The position numbers and the translations under genes were made by a program. This document shows, piece by piece, positions 8,364 through 19,645 of a DNA stretch of 64,000 bases. The notes below the pieces were generated by a model that saw nothing but the letters and a program-made list of their open reading frames with translations, had not been told where the DNA came from and ran no database searches. This DNA comes from an uncultured archaeon (GTDB taxonomy: Archaea; Thermoplasmatota; Thermoplasmata; Thermoplasmatales; Thermoplasmataceae), in assembly GCA_000965745.1 (NCBI GenBank), contig CP009479.1, forward strand, positions 878,457-942,456, written 5' to 3'. Within the stretch, counting starts at the first letter, position 1; the number at the start of each line of letters is the position of its first letter.

Positions 8364-8448
8364 GCAGGGGTTGTCGAGATTGGTCAAAGGCGCTAGATTG
8401 AGGGTCTAGTCCCGTAGGGGTACGTGGGTTCAAATCCCATCCCCTGCA
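8364..8448 (+). tRNA. tRNA-Leu (GAG)
   Basis: An 85-nt gene that folds as a class II tRNA. The acceptor stem GCAGGGG/CCCCTGC is followed by discriminator A at 8448, the T arm is GTGGGTTCAAATCCCAT and there is a long variable arm (CCCGTAGGGG). The anticodon loop TTGAGGG is closed by CTAGA/TCTAG, placing GAG at 8400-8402. CCA is not encoded. A TATA-like TTAAATATT lies about 30 nt upstream. Its 3' end is the integration site of the following element. Confidence 0.95.
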
Positions 8449-8449
8449 T
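8438..8449 (+). repeat. attL: 12-bp direct repeat at tRNA-Leu 3' end
   Basis: CATCCCCTGCAT spans the end of the T arm, the 3' acceptor strand, the discriminator base and one flanking base. The identical copy is at 19634-19645. A short CCAAAT follows both copies at slightly different distances. Integration at this place leaves the tRNA gene intact. Confidence 0.85.
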
Positions 8450-8710: not shown

Positions 8711-9781
8711 GTGCCTGTAATACGTAAGGATATGATCGAAGAAAGCAATCCAGCAGAGGATTCAATTCGACACTTTGCGGCCCAGGCATCTGCTTTTAAA
8801 AGTCACAAGAAAGCAAGGGACGCTGCATTTAAAGCTTGGAGAACAATGAGAGCTAGAGAGCTTGAAATAGCTTCTAGGGGAGTTCCAAGGCTAGATAAAT
8901 TCAACAAAGACGCATACCTAGTTCCAGAAGGCGTCAGCTTCTCGACATACAGGACTTCTTCTCCTTTAGTTAAAACCTCAAAGCTAACGAGCAAGGAAAA
9001 TGGCGGTGTTGGGAAGGAACTCTCAGACGGTTGGGTAGCAAATTATGCTACAGGATGCACTCATGGATGCAAATTCTGCTACGTGGATGCAATCCATAAA
9101 AAATTTGGTCAGAAAAGGGTTGGCAGTATTGTGTATGATGACTGGGGAGATTACTTTGCTATCCCTTCCAATCTGGACGAGGTTATTGAAAATACTAAGT
9201 GGAAGAGGTGGAGCGGGACTGAAGTGATGCTTTCATCAACTCATGACCCATATCTTCCTCAGGTTAACAAGTACACAAGAAAAATCCTCGAAAAGGCTCT
9301 TCCCGAAGGGGTAAAATTCTGCATACAAACGAGAAATCCACTTGTGGAGCGTGATATGGAGCTTATAAGTCAATACCGGGACCAAGTGAGACTTCAGGTG
9401 TCCATAGCATCAATGAATGAGGATCTCTCCAGAGCTATAGAACCAAGGGTAGTTAAACCAGAAAGAAGACTGCAAATCCTCGAAAAGGCTAGAGAACATG
9501 GGCTGAATACCGGAGTCATAATAGCTCCTGTATTCCCGGAACTAAAAATCAGACCACACGTTTATGCAGACATAAAAGCCATTGCCTCAAGACTAGAGAC
9601 ATTTAGGCCAGACCACATATATGGCGAATCACTGCATCTAAGGGGAATAAACATAGCATATGTTGAAGATGCACTTGGGCAAGCAGTGAATATCGATGGG
9701 TTTGACAAAAAGGCGGAAGAATGGTTCCACAAAGCCTTAAGTTGCTATAATCTGAAAGGAATTTGGTGGAAGGAGTTTTGA
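8711..9781 (+). CDS. Radical SAM protein (SPL-like/three-Cys-motif), partner of TcmP
   Basis: A 356-residue protein with the radical SAM cluster motif CTHGCKFCYV at C116, C120 and C123 (CX3CX2C). It is followed by TIM-barrel features similar to spore photoproduct lyase-like proteins (STHDPYLPQVNKYTRKILEKAL, IQTRNPLVERDMELI, VRLQVSIASMNEDLSRAIEP). The N-terminal 100 residues are charged and helical. It starts at GTG 8711 with a TATA-like box about 25 nt upstream, so it is probably leaderless. It converges on the TcmP gene 7 bp away. The substrate is unknown. As the first gene inside the integrated element it looks like cargo rather than replication machinery; a host-protection role is only a guess. 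Confidence 0.8.
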   Translation: MPVIRKDMIEESNPAEDSIRHFAAQASAFKSHKKARDAAFKAWRTMRARELEIASRGVPRLDKFNKDAYLVPEGVSFSTYRTSSPLVKTSKLTSKENGGVGKELSDGWVANYATGCTHGCKFCYVDAIHKKFGQKRVGSIVYDDWGDYFAIPSNLDEVIENTKWKRWSGTEVMLSSTHDPYLPQVNKYTRKILEKALPEGVKFCIQTRNPLVERDMELISQYRDQVRLQVSIASMNEDLSRAIEPRVVKPERRLQILEKAREHGLNTGVIIAPVFPELKIRPHVYADIKAIASRLETFRPDHIYGESLHLRGINIAYVEDALGQAVNIDGFDKKAEEWFHKALSCYNLKGIWWKEF

Positions 9782-9788
9782 ACTATTC

Positions 9789-10799
9789 TTATTCAGTATC
9801 AAACTTCAGGGTCTGTTGTTCAAAACATTTGTTAAGGGCTGTCTCAGCATCTTGTCCAGTGACATTTTCAAGATGGTAGGCTATCCAGTTAACAGACTTG
9901 ACCCAATCACTTCCGGTTAGTGTATTTCTCGTGTAATAACCTAAGTGATATACGGGTGTATTTTTACGGGAATAAATTGGGAAAGCTTGCCCCTTCTCTT
10001 TTCCTATGCTATCTTCGAATTGTTTGTTCAACAGGCTTCTATAGGTTCCCTTCGAGTTTAGGTCGTTCATTTCAACATCAAGTATTTCCTTCAACTCCTC
10101 TGGGGTTTTGCCCAAACTGGTGCATATTGCCTTTACATAACCTAGATTACCTTTCTTCAGGGCACCATAAACTCGTTCAGATCCAGAGCTAATATTCACT
10201 AGGTAATCAACCCCTAAGTATTTTGAAGATAGGTATCTGTAAGTTCTCCAGTCAGTTTCCATTCCTTCTTGGTCCCCAAGGGCAAAAATAAGTGGCTTTT
10301 CAAATTTTTCTTCTATCAATTTGACGGCTTCACCGATTTTTTTATTACAGTTGCCCTCGATTACATGAAACTTATCTTGAAGCCCCATTTGACCAACCCT
10401 ACTTTTCAAGAGGCGAGCTCTCTCTTCGTTGCTCTCAATAAATATCGCCATGTCAAATTCTCTGTTTCCCTCTTGTTCCACGGTTGCCGCAAAAGGAGAT
10501 CCCACAACAGCTCTAAGTTTGCTACCTCTCTTGCCTCTAGTGACAGTAAGGCCACCTCCCGCGTACAGGTCAAGATAAATAGCTCCGTCATAATTTGCAG
10601 AAATAGCTTTTTCTCCCTTAGCTACCATCAGAAATCTGCTTGCAATGCTCCTCACTGCAACCAGTTTAGACAGCGTATAGGGCTTATAACTCACATCGTG
10701 GCTCGATGGTTCAAACACTTTTGCTAGCCTGACAATAGTTTCTATTCTGTCGCTTAAATATTTGATAGAGGCATCAATACTCGGTTTCCTGACTTCCAA
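9789..10799 (-). CDS. tcmP: Three-Cys-motif partner protein (TcmP family)
   Basis: A 336-residue protein resembling the TcmP family, whose members sit next to radical-SAM-like proteins carrying a three-cysteine motif. The N-terminal half has a Rossmann/methyltransferase-like core (AIYLDLYAGGGLT at about 70-82, IFIESNEERARLLKSRV at about 118-134, and a strand FALGDQEGMETDW). The C-terminal part is helical. TcmP biochemistry is not established. Its tail-to-tail arrangement with the radical SAM gene, with 7 bp between the stops, supports a functional pair, although they must be expressed from separate promoters. Confidence 0.75.
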   Translation of the reverse strand: MEVRKPSIDASIKYLSDRIETIVRLAKVFEPSSHDVSYKPYTLSKLVAVRSIASRFLMVAKGEKAISANYDGAIYLDLYAGGGLTVTRGKRGSKLRAVVGSPFAATVEQEGNREFDMAIFIESNEERARLLKSRVGQMGLQDKFHVIEGNCNKKIGEAVKLIEEKFEKPLIFALGDQEGMETDWRTYRYLSSKYLGVDYLVNISSGSERVYGALKKGNLGYVKAICTSLGKTPEELKEILDVEMNDLNSKGTYRSLLNKQFEDSIGKEKGQAFPIYSRKNTPVYHLGYYTRNTLTGSDWVKSVNWIAYHLENVTGQDAETALNKCFEQQTLKFDTE

Positions 10800-11345: not shown

Positions 11346-11476
11346 AAGATACAAACTTTGCTAATAAACATTCGCAATCAGACCGTAAAAATACAGGTTC
11401 TCCAGCTAACAATAGGGCTGAACGGATGAAAGAATACATGGATCTCCTGGACGAGCTCTTTGAGGGTGTTGAGTGA
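11342..11476 (+). CDS. 44-residue hydrophilic protein of unknown function
   Basis: A small frame that begins with the ATG of an ATGA overlap with the ribbon-helix-helix gene and ends at TGA 11474-11476, just before the helicase gene. The protein is polar in its first half and ends in an acidic helix (RMKEYMDLLDELFEGVE). The tight stop/start overlap, and the GGAGG for the next gene placed at its stop codon, support it being translated. I do not recognise it; it may be a small helicase-loading or regulatory peptide. Confidence 0.55.
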   Translation: MKDTNFANKHSQSDRKNTGSPANNRAERMKEYMDLLDELFEGVE

Positions 11477-11487
11477 GGAGGACCAAA

Positions 11488-13638
11488 ATGCAACCAAGTG
11501 GTTATTCTGCACTTTCAGTGGCCTTAAGTCCTGGTCAGATAGATGAGTTTGAGAAACGCCTGCAGTTCCTCACAGAAGGTCGTTCAAAGAAATTCAGCGA
11601 GGTTTTGTCACAATATTCTGCGGTCGCAATCACTTTGCATCAGGCAAAGGAAATTGATCGCCTGAGAGGGATTCAAAGCAAACTGGTCAGGGTGTATGAC
11701 ATTTACAGCGGATATGACCAGCCCGACCCCGCTCCAGAGCTAGTTGAGGGATGGATGGAATCTGTAAGAGAGGAGGTCATCAATAAGAACGAAGTTGACC
11801 GTCAAAAGCTAGCCCAGGAAATAAACGAGGAATACGGGTTTGCCAATCTAAATGGTGTCGAGTTCCTTAGATACGATGATGCTGAAGGATATTGGAAGCC
11901 TGATGCTGAGTTGTTCATAGGGAAGATAGTCAGACATGTTCTGCCCGATGAGTCCACACAACATATTGTCAATGAGGTTTGCCATTGGATTAAGGACTAT
12001 AGACTATTAGCAAACCCTTCTGAATTTGAGAAAGTCCCTGATGGGTTGATAAATATGCCAAGAGGTGTGTTCAACATCAGAACGGGAAAGCTGGAACCCC
12101 ACAATCCAGACTACCACTTCAGATATGTGTTGCCTTTCAACTACAATCACAGGGCCAGGAAGTCCAAGTTCATGAAGGTCCTTTCCGAGATTACTGAGGA
12201 TGACCCCCGTAAAGCTGTTAGGGTTCTAGAGATGTTTGCATGGGTCCTCATTCCTGGATATCCCATACAGAAAGCTATTGCACTGTATGGGAACGGAAAC
12301 AATGGAAAATCAGTGATTTTGGGAGTTCTGTCTGCATTTGTAGGCTCCCTAAATGTCTCTGGCGTCACTATGCAGCAGTTATGTGACAACAGATTTGCCG
12401 CAGCAAATCTTAGAGGGGCCCTTGCCAACATCTCAGGAGATGTCGGTGCAGGTGCATTACTGGACACCTCTCAGTTCAAGCAGGCAACGGGAGGGGACAG
12501 AATAGATGCGGAGAAGAAGGGCGTTCAGGAACCCTTACGGTTCTGGAACACAGCTAAGATGATCTTCTCCTTCAATACTCTTCCAAGAACCAGAGATACC
12601 ACTAATGCGTATTTCAGGCGGTTTGAGTTAATTGAGTTGGTACAGGACTTTGAAGGCAGAGAGGACAAGAAGCTTCTGAGCAAGCTCACAACAGAGGATG
12701 AGTTGCAGTCCATATTCAACACAGTCAGTTCGGTATTCCTGCCAGCGCTCCTGGATAAGCTGGAGTTCGAGTTCGGAAAGAAGGCTGATGAAATCAGGAC
12801 AAATTACGAATTGAATGCAAATTCCGCTCTTGCATTCATAGATGAAAGAATAGCGCCTAACAGCATTGGACAGATACTTTCCCAAGACCTATATGCCAAA
12901 TATACTGAATGGTGCAAGGAAAAAGGAGTTGTTGCACTCTCAGAGGAATCCTTCGGAAGTGCACTCATCAAGCTGTCAGGCATAGAAGGGGTTTTTAAGT
13001 CTCGAAAGCAGGAGAACGGTGTCAGGAAAAACTACTACGTTGGAATATCTTTGACAACACCTGAGAATGATTCTAACAAACCTAAAAACAAGGAAGAGAC
13101 CCCGACCTATGGCACGTTTGAAGAGGCAGTATTAGACTATATTTCCAATCACTTCAAGGACCGGAGTGCCATAGGTGGCATAGTATCTGTACTCCCGGAT
13201 GGTTTGGGAAACGGTACGAGAGTACAAAACCCATGCCACCTATGGCAGCAAAAGAGAACCATACTCTCAAAAGATGCCGTAATAGCATCTCCAGAGAAGT
13301 GCCATAGCTTATCGGTACCTATGGCAGAAGATGATTCCAAAGACTGTGTCTCCCCATCTGAAGTTGACGACATCAGCGAAAGTAATGAAAACGAGGGAGT
13401 GCAGACAGATACTGAAAAATCACTGCTTGAAAGAGTTATCGACCTTCTTACTGATTGTACATACAACACCACAGAGAAATTCAGATCTGTTCAGTATCTT
13501 GCTGAAGCAGCAATAGACGGAGACATCACACATAGCACAATCTACGAGGCTCTGGAGGAAGGGGTTAGCCGGGGACAGGTAGTCAAGAAGGGTGCAAAGT
13601 ACGGATTCAAGTGTTACGTTGGAGGTGATTCAACATGA
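11488..13638 (+). CDS. SF3 (D5/P4-type) replicative helicase with N-terminal RHH-like segment
   Basis: About 716 residues. The helicase core has Walker A GNGNNGKS at about 268-275, preceded by a D5_N-like region (GLINMPRGVFNIRTGKL), and later QATGGDRIDAEKKG and FSFNTLPRTRDTTNAYFRRF, typical of plasmid and viral D5/P4 helicases. No archaeo-eukaryotic primase domain is evident at the N-terminus. Instead, the first 45 residues (ALSVALSPGQIDEFEKRLQF and onward) look like a ribbon-helix-helix unit. After about residue 525 comes a low-complexity linker containing inverted repeats, then a C-terminal winged-helix-like segment. The start is ATG 11488, with GGAGG upstream; GTG 11473 is less likely. It is the key replication protein of the element. 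Confidence 0.85.
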   Translation: MQPSGYSALSVALSPGQIDEFEKRLQFLTEGRSKKFSEVLSQYSAVAITLHQAKEIDRLRGIQSKLVRVYDIYSGYDQPDPAPELVEGWMESVREEVINKNEVDRQKLAQEINEEYGFANLNGVEFLRYDDAEGYWKPDAELFIGKIVRHVLPDESTQHIVNEVCHWIKDYRLLANPSEFEKVPDGLINMPRGVFNIRTGKLEPHNPDYHFRYVLPFNYNHRARKSKFMKVLSEITEDDPRKAVRVLEMFAWVLIPGYPIQKAIALYGNGNNGKSVILGVLSAFVGSLNVSGVTMQQLCDNRFAAANLRGALANISGDVGAGALLDTSQFKQATGGDRIDAEKKGVQEPLRFWNTAKMIFSFNTLPRTRDTTNAYFRRFELIELVQDFEGREDKKLLSKLTTEDELQSIFNTVSSVFLPALLDKLEFEFGKKADEIRTNYELNANSALAFIDERIAPNSIGQILSQDLYAKYTEWCKEKGVVALSEESFGSALIKLSGIEGVFKSRKQENGVRKNYYVGISLTTPENDSNKPKNKEETPTYGTFEEAVLDYISNHFKDRSAIGGIVSVLPDGLGNGTRVQNPCHLWQQKRTILSKDAVIASPEKCHSLSVPMAEDDSKDCVSPSEVDDISESNENEGVQTDTEKSLLERVIDLLTDCTYNTTEKFRSVQYLAEAAIDGDITHSTIYEALEEGVSRGQVVKKGAKYGFKCYVGGDST
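13167..13326. repeat. TGCCA/TGGCA inverted repeats inside the helicase gene linker
   Basis: TGCCATAGGTGGCAT at 13167-13181 and its exact reverse complement ATGCCACCTATGGCA at 13233-13247 form a 15-bp inverted repeat. Each arm is itself a TGCCA-N4-TGGCA palindrome. A third pair, TGCCATAG at 13300-13307 and CTATGGCA at 13319-13326, follows. All lie in the section encoding the variable linker of the helicase. They could bind a replication or partition protein, or mark an insertion. Confidence 0.6.
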
Positions 13639-14948: not shown

Positions 14949-15815
14949 ATGGAAAAATTGAAACCTAAACTAAAACGGTTCACCATTTTCGGGTTCCTGG
15001 CGGTCATGATCGCCGTGATTGCGCTGCCAGTGGGAACCTCGTTTGCCCAGGGCATCAGTGGGCATGGAAACACTCAACTGTACTCCACTCAGTTCGTGTC
15101 AGAGGCCCTGGCAATGCAGAATGGTACAACTACCTACAGCGCACTGCCCTTCAGTTCTGTGAATGGTTCATATACCATTTCAAACAGCTACCTGGTCGCA
15201 GGAGTCAACAACACAACTTTCACGGAGAATTACGGTGTAGTCTATCTTGCATCGAATATAACATTCAGCGAACTTTCATCTCACTCAGTCAACAAGCTTG
15301 TTGCACACATATCTCCAGTCTCCAACATCACAGCAGAACTTGGATTTGGGTCTGCATCAGTGACACCTAACGGAACATCTCTCTCATTCACGCCACTGCT
15401 TTCACAGAACACCACGGGAACAAATGGCTCTGCAACAATGACATTCAACCTTAACCCAGCTGAGCTCTCTGAAAACTCAACAGATGTTGTCGTTCTCAAG
15501 CTCCAGTTCACCAATGCATCATCATCGTTTTCAGCCTCAGGCTATGTTCTAGGCACCCAGAACGCTGAACCATGGTACATAGCAGGCGAATCTGCAGCCT
15601 ATGCAGTTGGCGGAACTCTGCTCTTTGCATTCGGATTTCTTGCACTCCCACACCTTGACATCAAGGTCAACAAGGCTAAGCTCCCATCGCTCCCAAGGAA
15701 GAAGTCCAAGTCATCACGGAAGACACAGACAACTCAGTACAGGCAGCAGGTCCAGAGAGCAAAACAGGTGAACAGCAGCAACAGAAAGAACTCGAAAAAA
15801 GGAGGTCGAAAGTAA
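14949..15815 (+). CDS. Secreted, membrane-anchored Thr/Ser/Asn-rich protein
   Basis: A 288-residue protein. A basic N-terminus and hydrophobic stretch (FTIFGFLAVMIAVIALPVG, about 15-33) ending FAQG looks like a signal peptide. Residues 35-215 form an extracytoplasmic region rich in N-x-S/T sequons and beta strands. A second membrane segment lies near 217-236 (AYAVGGTLLFAFGFLALP). The last 50 residues are a strongly basic cytoplasmic tail (KSKSSRKTQTTQYRQQVQR...KNSKKGGRK). This type I topology with a nucleic-acid-like tail suits a spike or envelope protein that contacts DNA, which is inference. Its TAA overlaps the next ATG. Confidence 0.65.
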   Translation: MEKLKPKLKRFTIFGFLAVMIAVIALPVGTSFAQGISGHGNTQLYSTQFVSEALAMQNGTTTYSALPFSSVNGSYTISNSYLVAGVNNTTFTENYGVVYLASNITFSELSSHSVNKLVAHISPVSNITAELGFGSASVTPNGTSLSFTPLLSQNTTGTNGSATMTFNLNPAELSENSTDVVVLKLQFTNASSSFSASGYVLGTQNAEPWYIAGESAAYAVGGTLLFAFGFLALPHLDIKVNKAKLPSLPRKKSKSSRKTQTTQYRQQVQRAKQVNSSNRKNSKKGGRK

Positions 15816-16282
15816 TGGCAGACACAGACTACATGCTATACAAGCGGATTATCTCGAAGCGTATGAGTGTCGGTGCAACCATCCTGGCATCATTCCTGGT
15901 GCTCATAGAACTTGCACTGCTCTTCTCTAGACCGTCATTCGGATTCGCTGGACATACCTACTACGTCAGCCAGGGTGTTGCAGCCTTTGCAATGCTCATT
16001 GGTGCACTCTTTTGGGCCATTGCAGAGATGTTCACACCCGCAGGAAGGACATTCTGGGCCCTGGCATCACGGTTCATAGTTGCATTCCTGATTGGCGGAA
16101 TATTCGGCGGTATAGTCGGTTCAGTGAGTGATTTCGGGCAGCTTGTGCTGGTCCCTGCATCAAACGGAAACGGGCTTGCAATATTCATGCTCCTGGGGTA
16201 TCTCTGGGTATTCATCGTCCTGGTATATTCCGGTGCATGGATGCACGCCAAGAACTTTGTCAAGAGAGGTGGTAAGCAGTGA
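15815..16282 (+). CDS. Four-helix membrane protein of the cassette
   Basis: A 155-residue protein with four hydrophobic segments (about 18-38, 49-72, 79-104 with a glycine-rich GGIFGGIVGSV, and 119-141). Both termini are basic and probably cytoplasmic. The ATG overlaps the previous stop by 1 bp, and its TGA overlaps the next GTG. No family is recognised. It is the largest polytopic protein of the cassette and could organise the smaller FG(V/I)W proteins. Confidence 0.65.
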   Translation: MADTDYMLYKRIISKRMSVGATILASFLVLIELALLFSRPSFGFAGHTYYVSQGVAAFAMLIGALFWAIAEMFTPAGRTFWALASRFIVAFLIGGIFGGIVGSVSDFGQLVLVPASNGNGLAIFMLLGYLWVFIVLVYSGAWMHAKNFVKRGGKQ

Positions 16283-16629
16283 ATGTGGTAACGGCAATCG
16301 CAGCCAAGGTGCTCCCCGCAACAACAAGCGGCTCAGGGACATCCGGTCTTGGAATGACCATCTTCAACTCGATCTGGAAGTTGGTGATGGGATTCCTTGG
16401 CGGCATACTGGATGGGGTCAACCTTCTCATGAAGGATACCTTTGGCGGTATCGGCCAAGCGATCATGCAGGTATTCCAGTCCTGGGGATTCTCGGTGAAC
16501 TCTCAGTTCGGTGTCTGGGCCCCTGTCGGACTCGTCCTGGTGCTTGGTGTAGCTGGAGCCCTGATATACGTCATGTTTGACGCAATCGGCATAGAGAAGG
16601 ACGTGCTGCACGGGGAAGAAGACATATAG
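16279..16629 (+). CDS. Small FG(V/I)W-motif membrane protein 1
   Basis: A 116-residue protein starting at GTG in a GTGA overlap. A glycine-rich amphipathic stretch (MGFLGGILDGVNLLMKDTFG) is followed by FGVWAPVGLVLVLGVAG, which begins the C-terminal membrane helix. The end is acidic (GIEKDVLHGEEDI). The FG(V/I)W(A/S)xP pattern at the mouth of the last helix is shared with the next two genes, marking three diverged paralogues. Confidence 0.6.
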   Translation: MNVVTAIAAKVLPATTSGSGTSGLGMTIFNSIWKLVMGFLGGILDGVNLLMKDTFGGIGQAIMQVFQSWGFSVNSQFGVWAPVGLVLVLGVAGALIYVMFDAIGIEKDVLHGEEDI

Positions 16630-16646
16630 ATGGAGGGTGAAAATAA

Positions 16647-16907
16647 TTGACACTCTCCATTCTCACTTTTTTTACCCAGATTTTCCAGTTCATAATTCAG
16701 GGATTGTTCGGTCTCATCAGCGGCTCTTTTGACTTCATTCTCTCGCTGGCAGGCAGCAGCATTCAGTCAGTGTCTGAACAGTTCGCACTGTCTGTTGAGG
16801 CATTCGGTATATGGTCCGTTCCGATGCTTGTTGTTGTCCTATCAATCACTGCAATCGGAGTATATGCGATCTTATCAGGGAGCGAAATGGTGGAGGGTCT
16901 CATTTGA
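16647..16907 (+). CDS. Small FG(V/I)W-motif membrane protein 2
   Basis: An 86-residue protein starting at TTG 16647, with GGAGGGTGA at 16632-16640. Two hydrophobic regions are separated by a polar amphipathic section (SSIQSVSEQFALSVEA). The second opens with FGIWSVPMLVVVLSI. It has the same layout as the 116-residue and 111-residue neighbours but no charged tail. Its stop overlaps the TTG of the next gene. Confidence 0.6.
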   Translation: MTLSILTFFTQIFQFIIQGLFGLISGSFDFILSLAGSSIQSVSEQFALSVEAFGIWSVPMLVVVLSITAIGVYAILSGSEMVEGLI

Positions 16908-17239
16908 GCGTAGTCAGCTTCTTCCAGAATCTCGGTCAGCAGGCATGGGGAGGTCTCACATGGCTCTACAATAATACAATAGGAGCAGGTCTGACTCTCT
17001 TTCAGAATGAAGTTCTGTCAGGTGCTGAATCCTTTGTCCTCAGCATTGCATCAGCGGCGCTCTCATTCTTTGGACTCATACTGTCCACAATCAATGGGAT
17101 ATTCGCCAGCTTCTTCAGCTCAATAGTGTTTATCTCTGCCAGTTTGGGAGTTTGGGCATTGCCTGTGGTGGTGTTCATACTCTTGGCTGTTTTCATCGTT
17201 ATGTACACGTTCATCAAGCTGGTTGTAGACCTTCTGTGA
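16904..17239 (+). CDS. Small FG(V/I)W-motif membrane protein 3
   Basis: The true start is probably TTG 16904, in a TTGA overlap with the previous stop and with GGAGGG at 16892-16897, giving 111 residues (MSVVSFFQNLGQQAWGG...). The frame stays open further upstream, but that part overlaps gene 2 entirely. A central hydrophobic segment (FVLSIASAALSFFGLILS) precedes LGVWALPVVVFILLAVF, the shared motif leading into the last helix. It is the last gene of the cassette. Confidence 0.6.
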   Translation: MSVVSFFQNLGQQAWGGLTWLYNNTIGAGLTLFQNEVLSGAESFVLSIASAALSFFGLILSTINGIFASFFSSIVFISASLGVWALPVVVFILLAVFIVMYTFIKLVVDLL

Positions 17240-18274: not shown

Positions 18275-19579
18275 TCAGTTGCCCTCCTTACTCAACCTCC
18301 TTCTGATTTCATCCTGGAGCGATTCAAATGACCCGGACTCCTTAGCGCCCTTCAGAATTATCCTAACAAACTCTGATCTTGCTTCAGGATTATCAAGCAC
18401 GGTCTCAAGCAGTTCCTTTTCGGCCCCGCTCACATTGTCAGACTGTCTGAGGGTCTCAACTGTTAGGGCCTCTTTCTCCAGGAATTCCTGCAGTACAGCA
18501 TGGTCCAGGGGCAGCCAGCACCTTCTGCAAACCTTTGAATTTGAAGGGTTCTCAGTTTCACACCTGGGGCACATAATGGGCCTCTCCTCTTCAAGCGGCT
18601 TATCCTCATCCTCCATTTTAACCCCATACGCACATAGAATAGCTCCATCTACGTCCTTACCAGAAAGGTGAACATAGGTCTGACTCATCTTTGATCCATG
18701 CACCCATCCCATGTGTTTTTCTAGTGGGGCTTCTCCTATCTTACTCGCAAGCAGGGTTGCCCTTGTATGCCTGAACAGATGAGGATAGACCCTTCTTGTG
18801 ATTCCTACTCTCTCGGCTGCTTTCTTCAGCATGTTCCGAACTTCAGGATAATCCATCTGGTTGTTGAAGTTCACAAGTTCGGTGAATAGCCAGGCATTCT
18901 CATCAGTACTCTTTGGGTGATTGCTCAACCAGGACCTGATATAAGCTATGCTGTTTCCAACTACCCTGACTTTCCTAAAACCAGTTTTTCCGGTCACGCT
19001 TATCATAGCCCCATATTTGTCAAACGCAAGGTCCTTAATCCTCATTGAGAGAAGTTCCGAAATCCTGCACCCCGAATCATATAGGAGTGATATGAGTGCC
19101 TTATCTCTAGCGTTTCTGCAACCTTCCAGGAGCTTGTCAACTTCTTTTGCAGTTATGTTTGTTTCTGGTTTCTTCTCTCTGCTTTTATGTCCAACAGTGG
19201 TTTTCAACCATTCAACACACTCAGGGTACTTCCTATCATCTGTAAGGAGCCATTTATAGAACCTCTTTAGAGTAACAGAATAAGCCTGAATGGCATTATC
19301 TGAAGGTTCGTGGAGTTCCCCGCCTCCCCATCTTACCTTCGTTGTGCTAACTGTCCTAACTACCTTCTTTATGTCCTTGGTTTCCGGGTTAAGAAATTCA
19401 TTTGGGATGATCTCTGCTATTTTCCTCAGTCTCAGAATATATGCGTATCTCCTTCCAGCAGATATTTTCTGAAGTGATAAGTCATCAATGAACTCAAGGA
19501 TTTTCTCCTTTGAGTCTTCAGATAGACTTGATTCTGTAAGTTTCCGCCTTTCCCTCTCCAGCCCATCTTCGTAAGTCAT
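18275..19579 (-). CDS. int: Tyrosine recombinase (integrase) with C-terminal zinc ribbon
   Basis: A 434-residue site-specific recombinase. Residues 1-130 form a SAM-like core-binding domain. The catalytic domain shows R172 (GCRISELL), H267-x-x-R270 (HLFRHTRATLL), the HMGW segment near 289-292 and the nucleophile Y302 (TYVHL). A C-terminal extension carries a four-cysteine ribbon (C337, C340, C351, C354; CPRC...CRRC) and a charged helical tail. All catalytic residues are present, so it is probably active. It starts 55 bp from attR, with a TATA-like ATTATAAAGG near 19620-19629. The gene is intact, not split by integration. Confidence 0.92.
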   Translation of the reverse strand: MTYEDGLERERRKLTESSLSEDSKEKILEFIDDLSLQKISAGRRYAYILRLRKIAEIIPNEFLNPETKDIKKVVRTVSTTKVRWGGGELHEPSDNAIQAYSVTLKRFYKWLLTDDRKYPECVEWLKTTVGHKSREKKPETNITAKEVDKLLEGCRNARDKALISLLYDSGCRISELLSMRIKDLAFDKYGAMISVTGKTGFRKVRVVGNSIAYIRSWLSNHPKSTDENAWLFTELVNFNNQMDYPEVRNMLKKAAERVGITRRVYPHLFRHTRATLLASKIGEAPLEKHMGWVHGSKMSQTYVHLSGKDVDGAILCAYGVKMEDEDKPLEEERPIMCPRCETENPSNSKVCRRCWLPLDHAVLQEFLEKEALTVETLRQSDNVSGAEKELLETVLDNPEARSEFVRIILKGAKESGSFESLQDEIRRRLSKEGN

Positions 19580-19633: not shown

Positions 19634-19645
19634 CATCCCCTGCAT
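19634..19645 (+). repeat. attR: 12-bp direct repeat
   Basis: CATCCCCTGCAT, identical to the 3' end of tRNA-Leu at 8438-8449. The flanking bases differ on both sides, so the core is exactly 12 bp, with a nearby CCAAAT also shared. It marks the right end of the integrated element. Confidence 0.85.

Follow-up and report, generated by a model that had tools for sequence, protein, structure and literature searches.

A convergent radical SAM/TcmP gene pair on a tRNA-integrated archaeal element as a possible mobile conflict module

The stretch of DNA that we analyzed, hereafter the window (64,000 nucleotides), belongs to an archaeal chromosome of 2.23 Mb. Next to a tRNA-Leu gene, it carries a gene for a radical SAM protein (rSAM) resembling spore photoproduct lyase (SPL) and a gene for TcmP, the three-Cys-motif partner protein. 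The features of the locus, in window coordinates, are as follows.

8364-8448, + strand: tRNA-Leu (GAG), the integration target (ARAGORN)
8438-8449, + strand: left att core, 12 bp, at the 3' end of tRNA-Leu (exact repeat of 19634-19645)
8711-9781, + strand: SPL-like rSAM, 356 aa, with CX3CX2C at residues 116-123 (PF04055, 4e-21)
9789-10799, - strand: TcmP, three-Cys-motif partner, 336 aa, methyltransferase fold (TIGR04474, 63.7 bits)
11473-13638, + strand: P4-type primase/helicase of the element (TIGR01613, 1e-54)
18275-19579, - strand: tyrosine recombinase (integrase) of the element (PF00589, 8.7e-26; XerA-like, 4.8e-34)
19634-19645, + strand: right att core, 12 bp (exact repeat of 8438-8449)

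The rSAM and TcmP genes are convergent, with their stop codons 7 bp apart, and together they form the first cargo of an element of about 11.2 kb bounded by the 12-bp repeats. A k-mer scan placed the right copy of the repeat 55 bp beyond the start of the XerA-like integrase; a search for direct repeats of 20 bp or longer found none, and the att core is 12 bp only. Judged by its sequence, this is a tRNA-integrated element, since it has both an integrase and a tRNA-derived direct repeat at its two ends. The first-pass annotation had proposed that an integrated element carried the pair as cargo at its edge, and the tRNA-Leu gene and the 12-bp repeats bear this out. The Lrp gene and the AsnA-like gene to the right of the element adjoin in 11/11 of the relatives' loci examined, and the right flank is therefore ordinary chromosome. 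Between the primase and the integrase (14949-17239) we observed a one-strand run of small ORFs, several of them hydrophobic by eye, for which there was no PHROG match except one weak holin-like one. The element may be viral in nature. The convergent rSAM/TcmP pair was found again in other archaea, with an rSAM identity of 51-57% in the closest ones, and this recurrence indicates that the pairing in the window is not due to chance.

We analyzed the rSAM by profile searches and by an AF2 model (pLDDT 85.4). The protein matched PF04055 at 76.3 bits (cut-off 29.5) and phrog_13321 at 1.2e-75. The best structural match of the model was SPL (Z 20.0, rmsd 3.7 over 256 residues), compared to Z 16.3 for the next family, and Foldseek matched the model to spore photoproduct lyase at 4.6e-12; the earlier description of the partner as an SPL-like radical SAM protein was thus well founded. 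The protein also keeps, like SPL, a Tyr beside the third Cys. The three cluster cysteines were present in 24/24 aligned rSAM sequences and no other Cys was invariant. SPL requires a fourth Cys, C140 or C141 (PMC3742179). Unlike SPL, the window-type rSAMs do not conserve it: no conserved counterpart was found when the 24 proteins were aligned by sequence. With only three cluster cysteines invariant, SPL chemistry is not expected of the rSAM. The earlier suggestion of repair therefore does not stand in the SPL sense. We also rejected membership in the SPL-type repair family on the missing conserved fourth Cys and on the score against the SPL model TIGR04070, which was far below the cut-off (15.4 bits against 400); the relation to SPL stands.

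The TcmP of the window matched TIGR04474 at 2.5e-17 and 63.7 bits, above the curated cut-off of 53, and neither Pfam nor PHROGs returned a match at E 0.01; PDB sequence searches with the protein also gave nothing significant. Compared with the TIGR04474 family, the window copy is highly divergent. Like that family, it adjoins a three-Cys protein, here the CX3CX2C rSAM. It is convergent with its SPL-like partner, whereas the Desulfobacterota TcmPs that we examined are co-directional with theirs. An AF2 model (pLDDT 87.7) had its nearest folds tied among Trm1 (Z 14.6), LCMT-1 (14.5) and RlmJ (14.3), which agrees with the methyltransferase-like core that had been proposed from the sequence; the closest folds of TcmP include the RNA methyltransferases Trm1, RlmJ, TYW4, TrmR and Trm5. 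Nine residues (K45, D77, G81, G83, G100, S101, D176, R209 and Y284) were invariant in 17 TcmP sequences; the SAM site (D77, G81, G83) and the motif IV Asp (D176) are therefore kept in 17/17. By its predicted fold and its SAM-site motif, TcmP is a putative class I SAM-dependent methyltransferase. Its DPFG-like motif may resemble that of Trm1. Position 177 of the D-P motif is Pro in 16/17 aligned TcmPs and Gln in the window copy alone, suggesting that catalysis by the window TcmP is possibly altered.

To determine how often TcmP occurs with a three-Cys partner, we collected from four phyla 77 TcmP loci that pass the TIGR04474 cut-off, weaker matches being left out of the count: 12 from the phylum of the window, 30 (of 32) from that of a Desulfobacula genome, 14 from that of a Halobaculum genome and 21 from that of a Phytoactinopolyspora genome. 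The genome tallies are lower bounds, because the search overlooked the window's own TcmP (0 matches in its genome, G000). A three-Cys partner, adjoining or fused, was seen in full at 74/77 loci; in two more (L017, L220) it was cut by the contig end, and with these the partnered TcmPs are 76/77, although the way in which the family was assembled may account for part of the pairing, since TIGR04474 was named from its neighbourhood (the model itself is blind to neighbours). The sole partnerless TcmP (L170) is truncated and ends at profile position 199 of 263. The partner calls of L180, L231, L240, L244 and three fusions were settled by eye, and the three-Cys motif occurred in only 1/177 (narrow form) or 2/177 (wide form) control ORFs. 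The first-pass annotation had held that an absence of co-occurrence would speak against its reading of the pair; what we observed was strong co-occurrence. In each of the three fusions (L174, L176 and L177), one ORF matches TIGR04474 over its first half and radical SAM or SPL over its second. A class of partners carries CX3CX3C in place of CX3CX2C (L174, L176, L180, L213, L224, L235-L239 and L244-L246); L174, L176 and L180, the three tested, still match PF04055.

We evaluated the neighbourhoods of 16 paired loci using 115 ORFs within about 6 kb, of which 108 came from 15 loci and 7 were hand-chosen from L045, reaching further out. As a control, 18 arbitrary regions of related genomes, with 218 ORFs in all, supplied 115 randomly drawn ORFs. 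Counting an ORF under several families where it matched them, the neighbours included five phage integrases, three N6 methyltransferases, two each of Dcm, Eco57I and Vsr, and one each of D12, GmrSD and DUF5131; among the 25 commonest of the 156 Pfam families of the control there was no integrase or restriction family, although such families may occur once each beyond those 25. The neighbour ORFs matched 194 PADLOC models compared to 56 for the control ORFs, both figures being inflated by redundant models, and many of the control matches were to ATPase-type models. Mobile and defence surroundings had been predicted for TcmP, and its loci do adjoin integrases and restriction-modification genes; a conserved housekeeping context, the alternative setting that had been named, was not the main one. 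At L048:7647-11969, a three-Cys gene resembling DUF5131, together with a TcmP-like ORF, is followed, back to back, by an rSAM with its own TcmP. In Sinorhizobium, the regulated-gene table of one study (PMC12445080) places TcmP immediately after an Hna defence gene (SMa2243 and SMa2245).

We further analyzed the partner from its own side. Scanning contigs with four rSAMs yielded 40 loci, among them 23 close relatives (L048-L070) that all bear archaeal record titles, and a scan of Thermoproteota gave 12/250 genomes at E < 1e-80, three of them already among the earlier loci. After an HMM scan of neighbouring ORFs we had 34 distinct close cellular rSAM loci, including the window and G128. TcmP adjoins the rSAM in 22/34 (18 convergent, 4 co-directional), two are undecidable by position (L070 at a contig end, L126 at the locus edge), and 10/34 are without an adjacent TcmP (L059, L061, L063, L065, L067, L068, L069, L128, L131 and L132). 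Within this last group, the TcmP of L059 lies at a distance of 3.7 kb, the TcmP of L061 is decayed and contains a stop, and the rSAM of L128 carries an internal stop. In L067 and L068 (Desulfurococcales/Acidilobaceae, 85% identical over 4.5 kb), the lone rSAM is convergent with a helicase-like gene and may be a domesticated copy. The lone rSAMs of Acidilobaceae and Desulfurococcales sit among seemingly ordinary chromosomal genes and may have another job. Some loci hold two rSAM genes: L126 has two adjoining, divergent genes of the window type next to the end of a TcmP (the second identified by eye), and the haloarchaeal L071, L072, L075 and L079 have a TcmP with two rSAM genes of the same family, in tandem in the first three and about 2 kb apart in L079.

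Partners without TcmP were also found in viruses. The radical SAM protein gp44 of Acidianus two-tailed virus (ATV) has 50.6% identity over 88% of the window rSAM. Unlike the window protein, it stands alone: the 10.9 kb examined contained no TcmP. No relatives were returned when viral contigs were scanned with single proteins, and an A1-based scan gave only ATV. DUF5131 (Gp37/Gp68), another three-Cys partner, occurs in 161 of 50,697 phage records, compared to 4 and 8 records matched by two TcmP queries, a comparison weakened by the divergence of TcmP; for this reason we inspected 14 DUF5131 loci. As expected for so divergent a family, tblastn of the window TcmP in phages gave no match, and we used HMM scans of the neighbours instead. 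TcmP was absent from 13/14 phage DUF5131 loci (3-kb flanks, three HMMs), and several of the lone DUF5131 genes lie within long co-directional runs with replication or DNA-metabolism genes. In Fairfaxidum, which came from the 14 DUF5131 matches, and in ThankyouJordi and Bosnia, which were chosen by their TcmP matches, DUF5131 and TcmP are convergent. In 3/3 Gordonia phage loci seen, TcmP is the next gene downstream of the immunity repressor and runs in the same direction. Genes in that position are commonly expressed in lysogens.

We compared the two proteins across 18 loci, including L059, whose TcmP is not adjacent. Over the 153 pairs, the mean identity was 54.8% for rSAM and 24.3% for TcmP. 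The rSAMs of L054 and L055 are 91.9% identical and their TcmPs 19.2%; the DNA similarity spans the upstream region and the rSAM gene and stops 18-21 bp before the rSAM stop codon. The same breakpoint pattern was observed for L050/L057 and L051/L054. Across the rSAM, L063 and L064 are 94.7% identical, one with a TcmP and the other with none, and the similarity ends about 20 bp past the stop. In L045/L050 the homology returns beyond TcmP. In trees of 22 loci, the TcmP groups c2 (6 rows) and c3 (5 rows) each formed one clade on the TcmP tree (100/100 and 100/98), but the rSAM tree required 6 and 5 changes for them, the maximum possible; its well-supported branches alone force at least 5 (c2) and at least 4 (c3). 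Overall, the two proteins still show a weak correlation (Mantel rho 0.23, p 0.018), and in the window and L048 both the rSAM and the TcmP are of related forms, indicating that exchange of TcmP is not universal.

Our leading interpretation, which we put forward tentatively, is that the two genes make up a mobile two-component conflict module with TcmP as the harmful, exchangeable effector and the rSAM as the protective partner. Such a module would serve defence or element maintenance and would presumably act on nucleic acid. TcmP, an enzyme of the SAM-dependent methyltransferase fold from an often exchanged clade, would be the harmful, target-acting component, and the rSAM would be a generic protector that undoes or neutralises the lesion or mark made by TcmP, like an antidote. 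As in restriction-modification, safety is expected of whichever component can occur by itself. Among the 77 loci TcmP was not found intact alone whereas the partner stands alone in cells and viruses, suggesting that TcmP is harmful and the rSAM safe. The exchange of TcmP beside a more constant rSAM also suits a generic antidote, because repair of a product needs no match to the toxin surface. We also count in its favour the c2 and c3 trees, the L063/L064 difference, the enriched neighbours and the place of TcmP behind the immunity repressor in the Gordonia phages. Viruses with only an rSAM or DUF5131 partner would then carry a counter-defence. However, several observations count against a toxin-antidote reading. 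The TcmP-rSAM fusions also suit a jointly acting enzyme and are the strongest counter-evidence; toxin-antitoxin genes are seldom arranged convergently; and a TcmP serving the rSAM as an accessory would give rise to the solitary-occurrence asymmetry too. The Gln of the window TcmP in the D-P motif and the chromosomal setting of the lone Acidilobaceae and Desulfurococcales rSAMs also weigh against it.

A joint two-step modification, which we consider rather unlikely, would have TcmP methylate or activate a DNA or RNA base that the rSAM then elaborates, either marking self DNA or blocking an invader. Wyosine offers a parallel, with Trm5 and TYW1 acting in sequence. The three single-ORF fusions are consistent with such a pathway, as are the RNA methyltransferases among the closest folds of TcmP and the SAM site and motif IV Asp kept in 17/17 sequences, but the solitary partners of viruses and cells would be left without their first step, and rSAMs 92% identical beside TcmPs 19% identical indicate that no matched pair is kept. 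It is improbable that TcmP is instead an exchangeable specificity or recruitment subunit, with the rSAM as the effector that damages or modifies the target selected by TcmP. That arrangement would agree with the fusions and with a diverse, exchanged TcmP beside a more constant rSAM; invariant D77, G81, G83 and D176 are, however, unusual for a mere adaptor, and where a virus or cell carries the rSAM alone, a damaging rSAM would have nothing to select its target. An ordinary housekeeping gene for UV or spore-photoproduct-like DNA repair, with TcmP as an accidental neighbour, is very improbable, for although SPL is the nearest solved fold, the rSAMs have three invariant Cys only and no SPL fourth Cys, the TcmP partnership is near-universal, and the loci are placed in elements and beside defence genes.

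The conflict-module interpretation can be extended to a radical-enzyme conflict system in which TcmP modifies, the rSAM reverses and viral three-Cys proteins are counter-defence antidotes; this whole chain, taken together, is doubtful. The modification of nucleic acid by TcmP would be reversible and would stop infected cells or cells losing the element, and the three-Cys radical-SAM protein would reverse it. Stand-alone three-Cys antidotes would then span ATV to Mycobacterium and Gordonia phages (Gp37/Gp68, DUF5131 family). Many genomes have annotations for TcmP and its three-Cys partner; the new observations here are the solitary-occurrence asymmetry, the exchange of partners and the virus-borne partners. 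The asymmetry, the exchange and the lone viral partners turn a vague association into a directional, testable claim, in which TcmP harms, the partner protects and viral partners cross-protect. The claim would, in addition, point to a function for the DUF5131 (Gp37/Gp68) family.

The TcmP/three-Cys family is already known and is already a PADLOC candidate. That listing had not been mentioned in the first-pass annotation, nor had the fusions, the exchange of partners or the lone partners in viruses. The window TcmP matched PDC-M41A at 9.6e-15, and the rSAM matched M30B and M41B weakly (0.0011 and 0.0027); PDC-M41 and PDC-M30 are candidate systems only. PDC-M30 is treated as a ‘guilt-by-embedding’ candidate in Pseudomonas in one report (PMC10855318). 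We found no functional study of TcmP, three-Cys-motif proteins, DUF5131 or PDC-M41 in the open-access literature, subscription papers and bioRxiv being mostly outside the scope of the search. The Radical SAM mobile pair A/B (TIGR04471/TIGR04470) is likewise a mobile two-gene unit with an SPL-like rSAM, but the second gene in the window is TcmP and not a second rSAM, and the window rSAM scores far under the cut-off of pair B (80.4 bits against 410 for TIGR04470). In DarTG and similar toxin/repair-enzyme modules, one enzyme makes a reversible nucleic-acid lesion and a second removes it. The logic that we propose for the rSAM/TcmP pair is alike, although the folds and chemistry differ and the comparison is one of analogy only.
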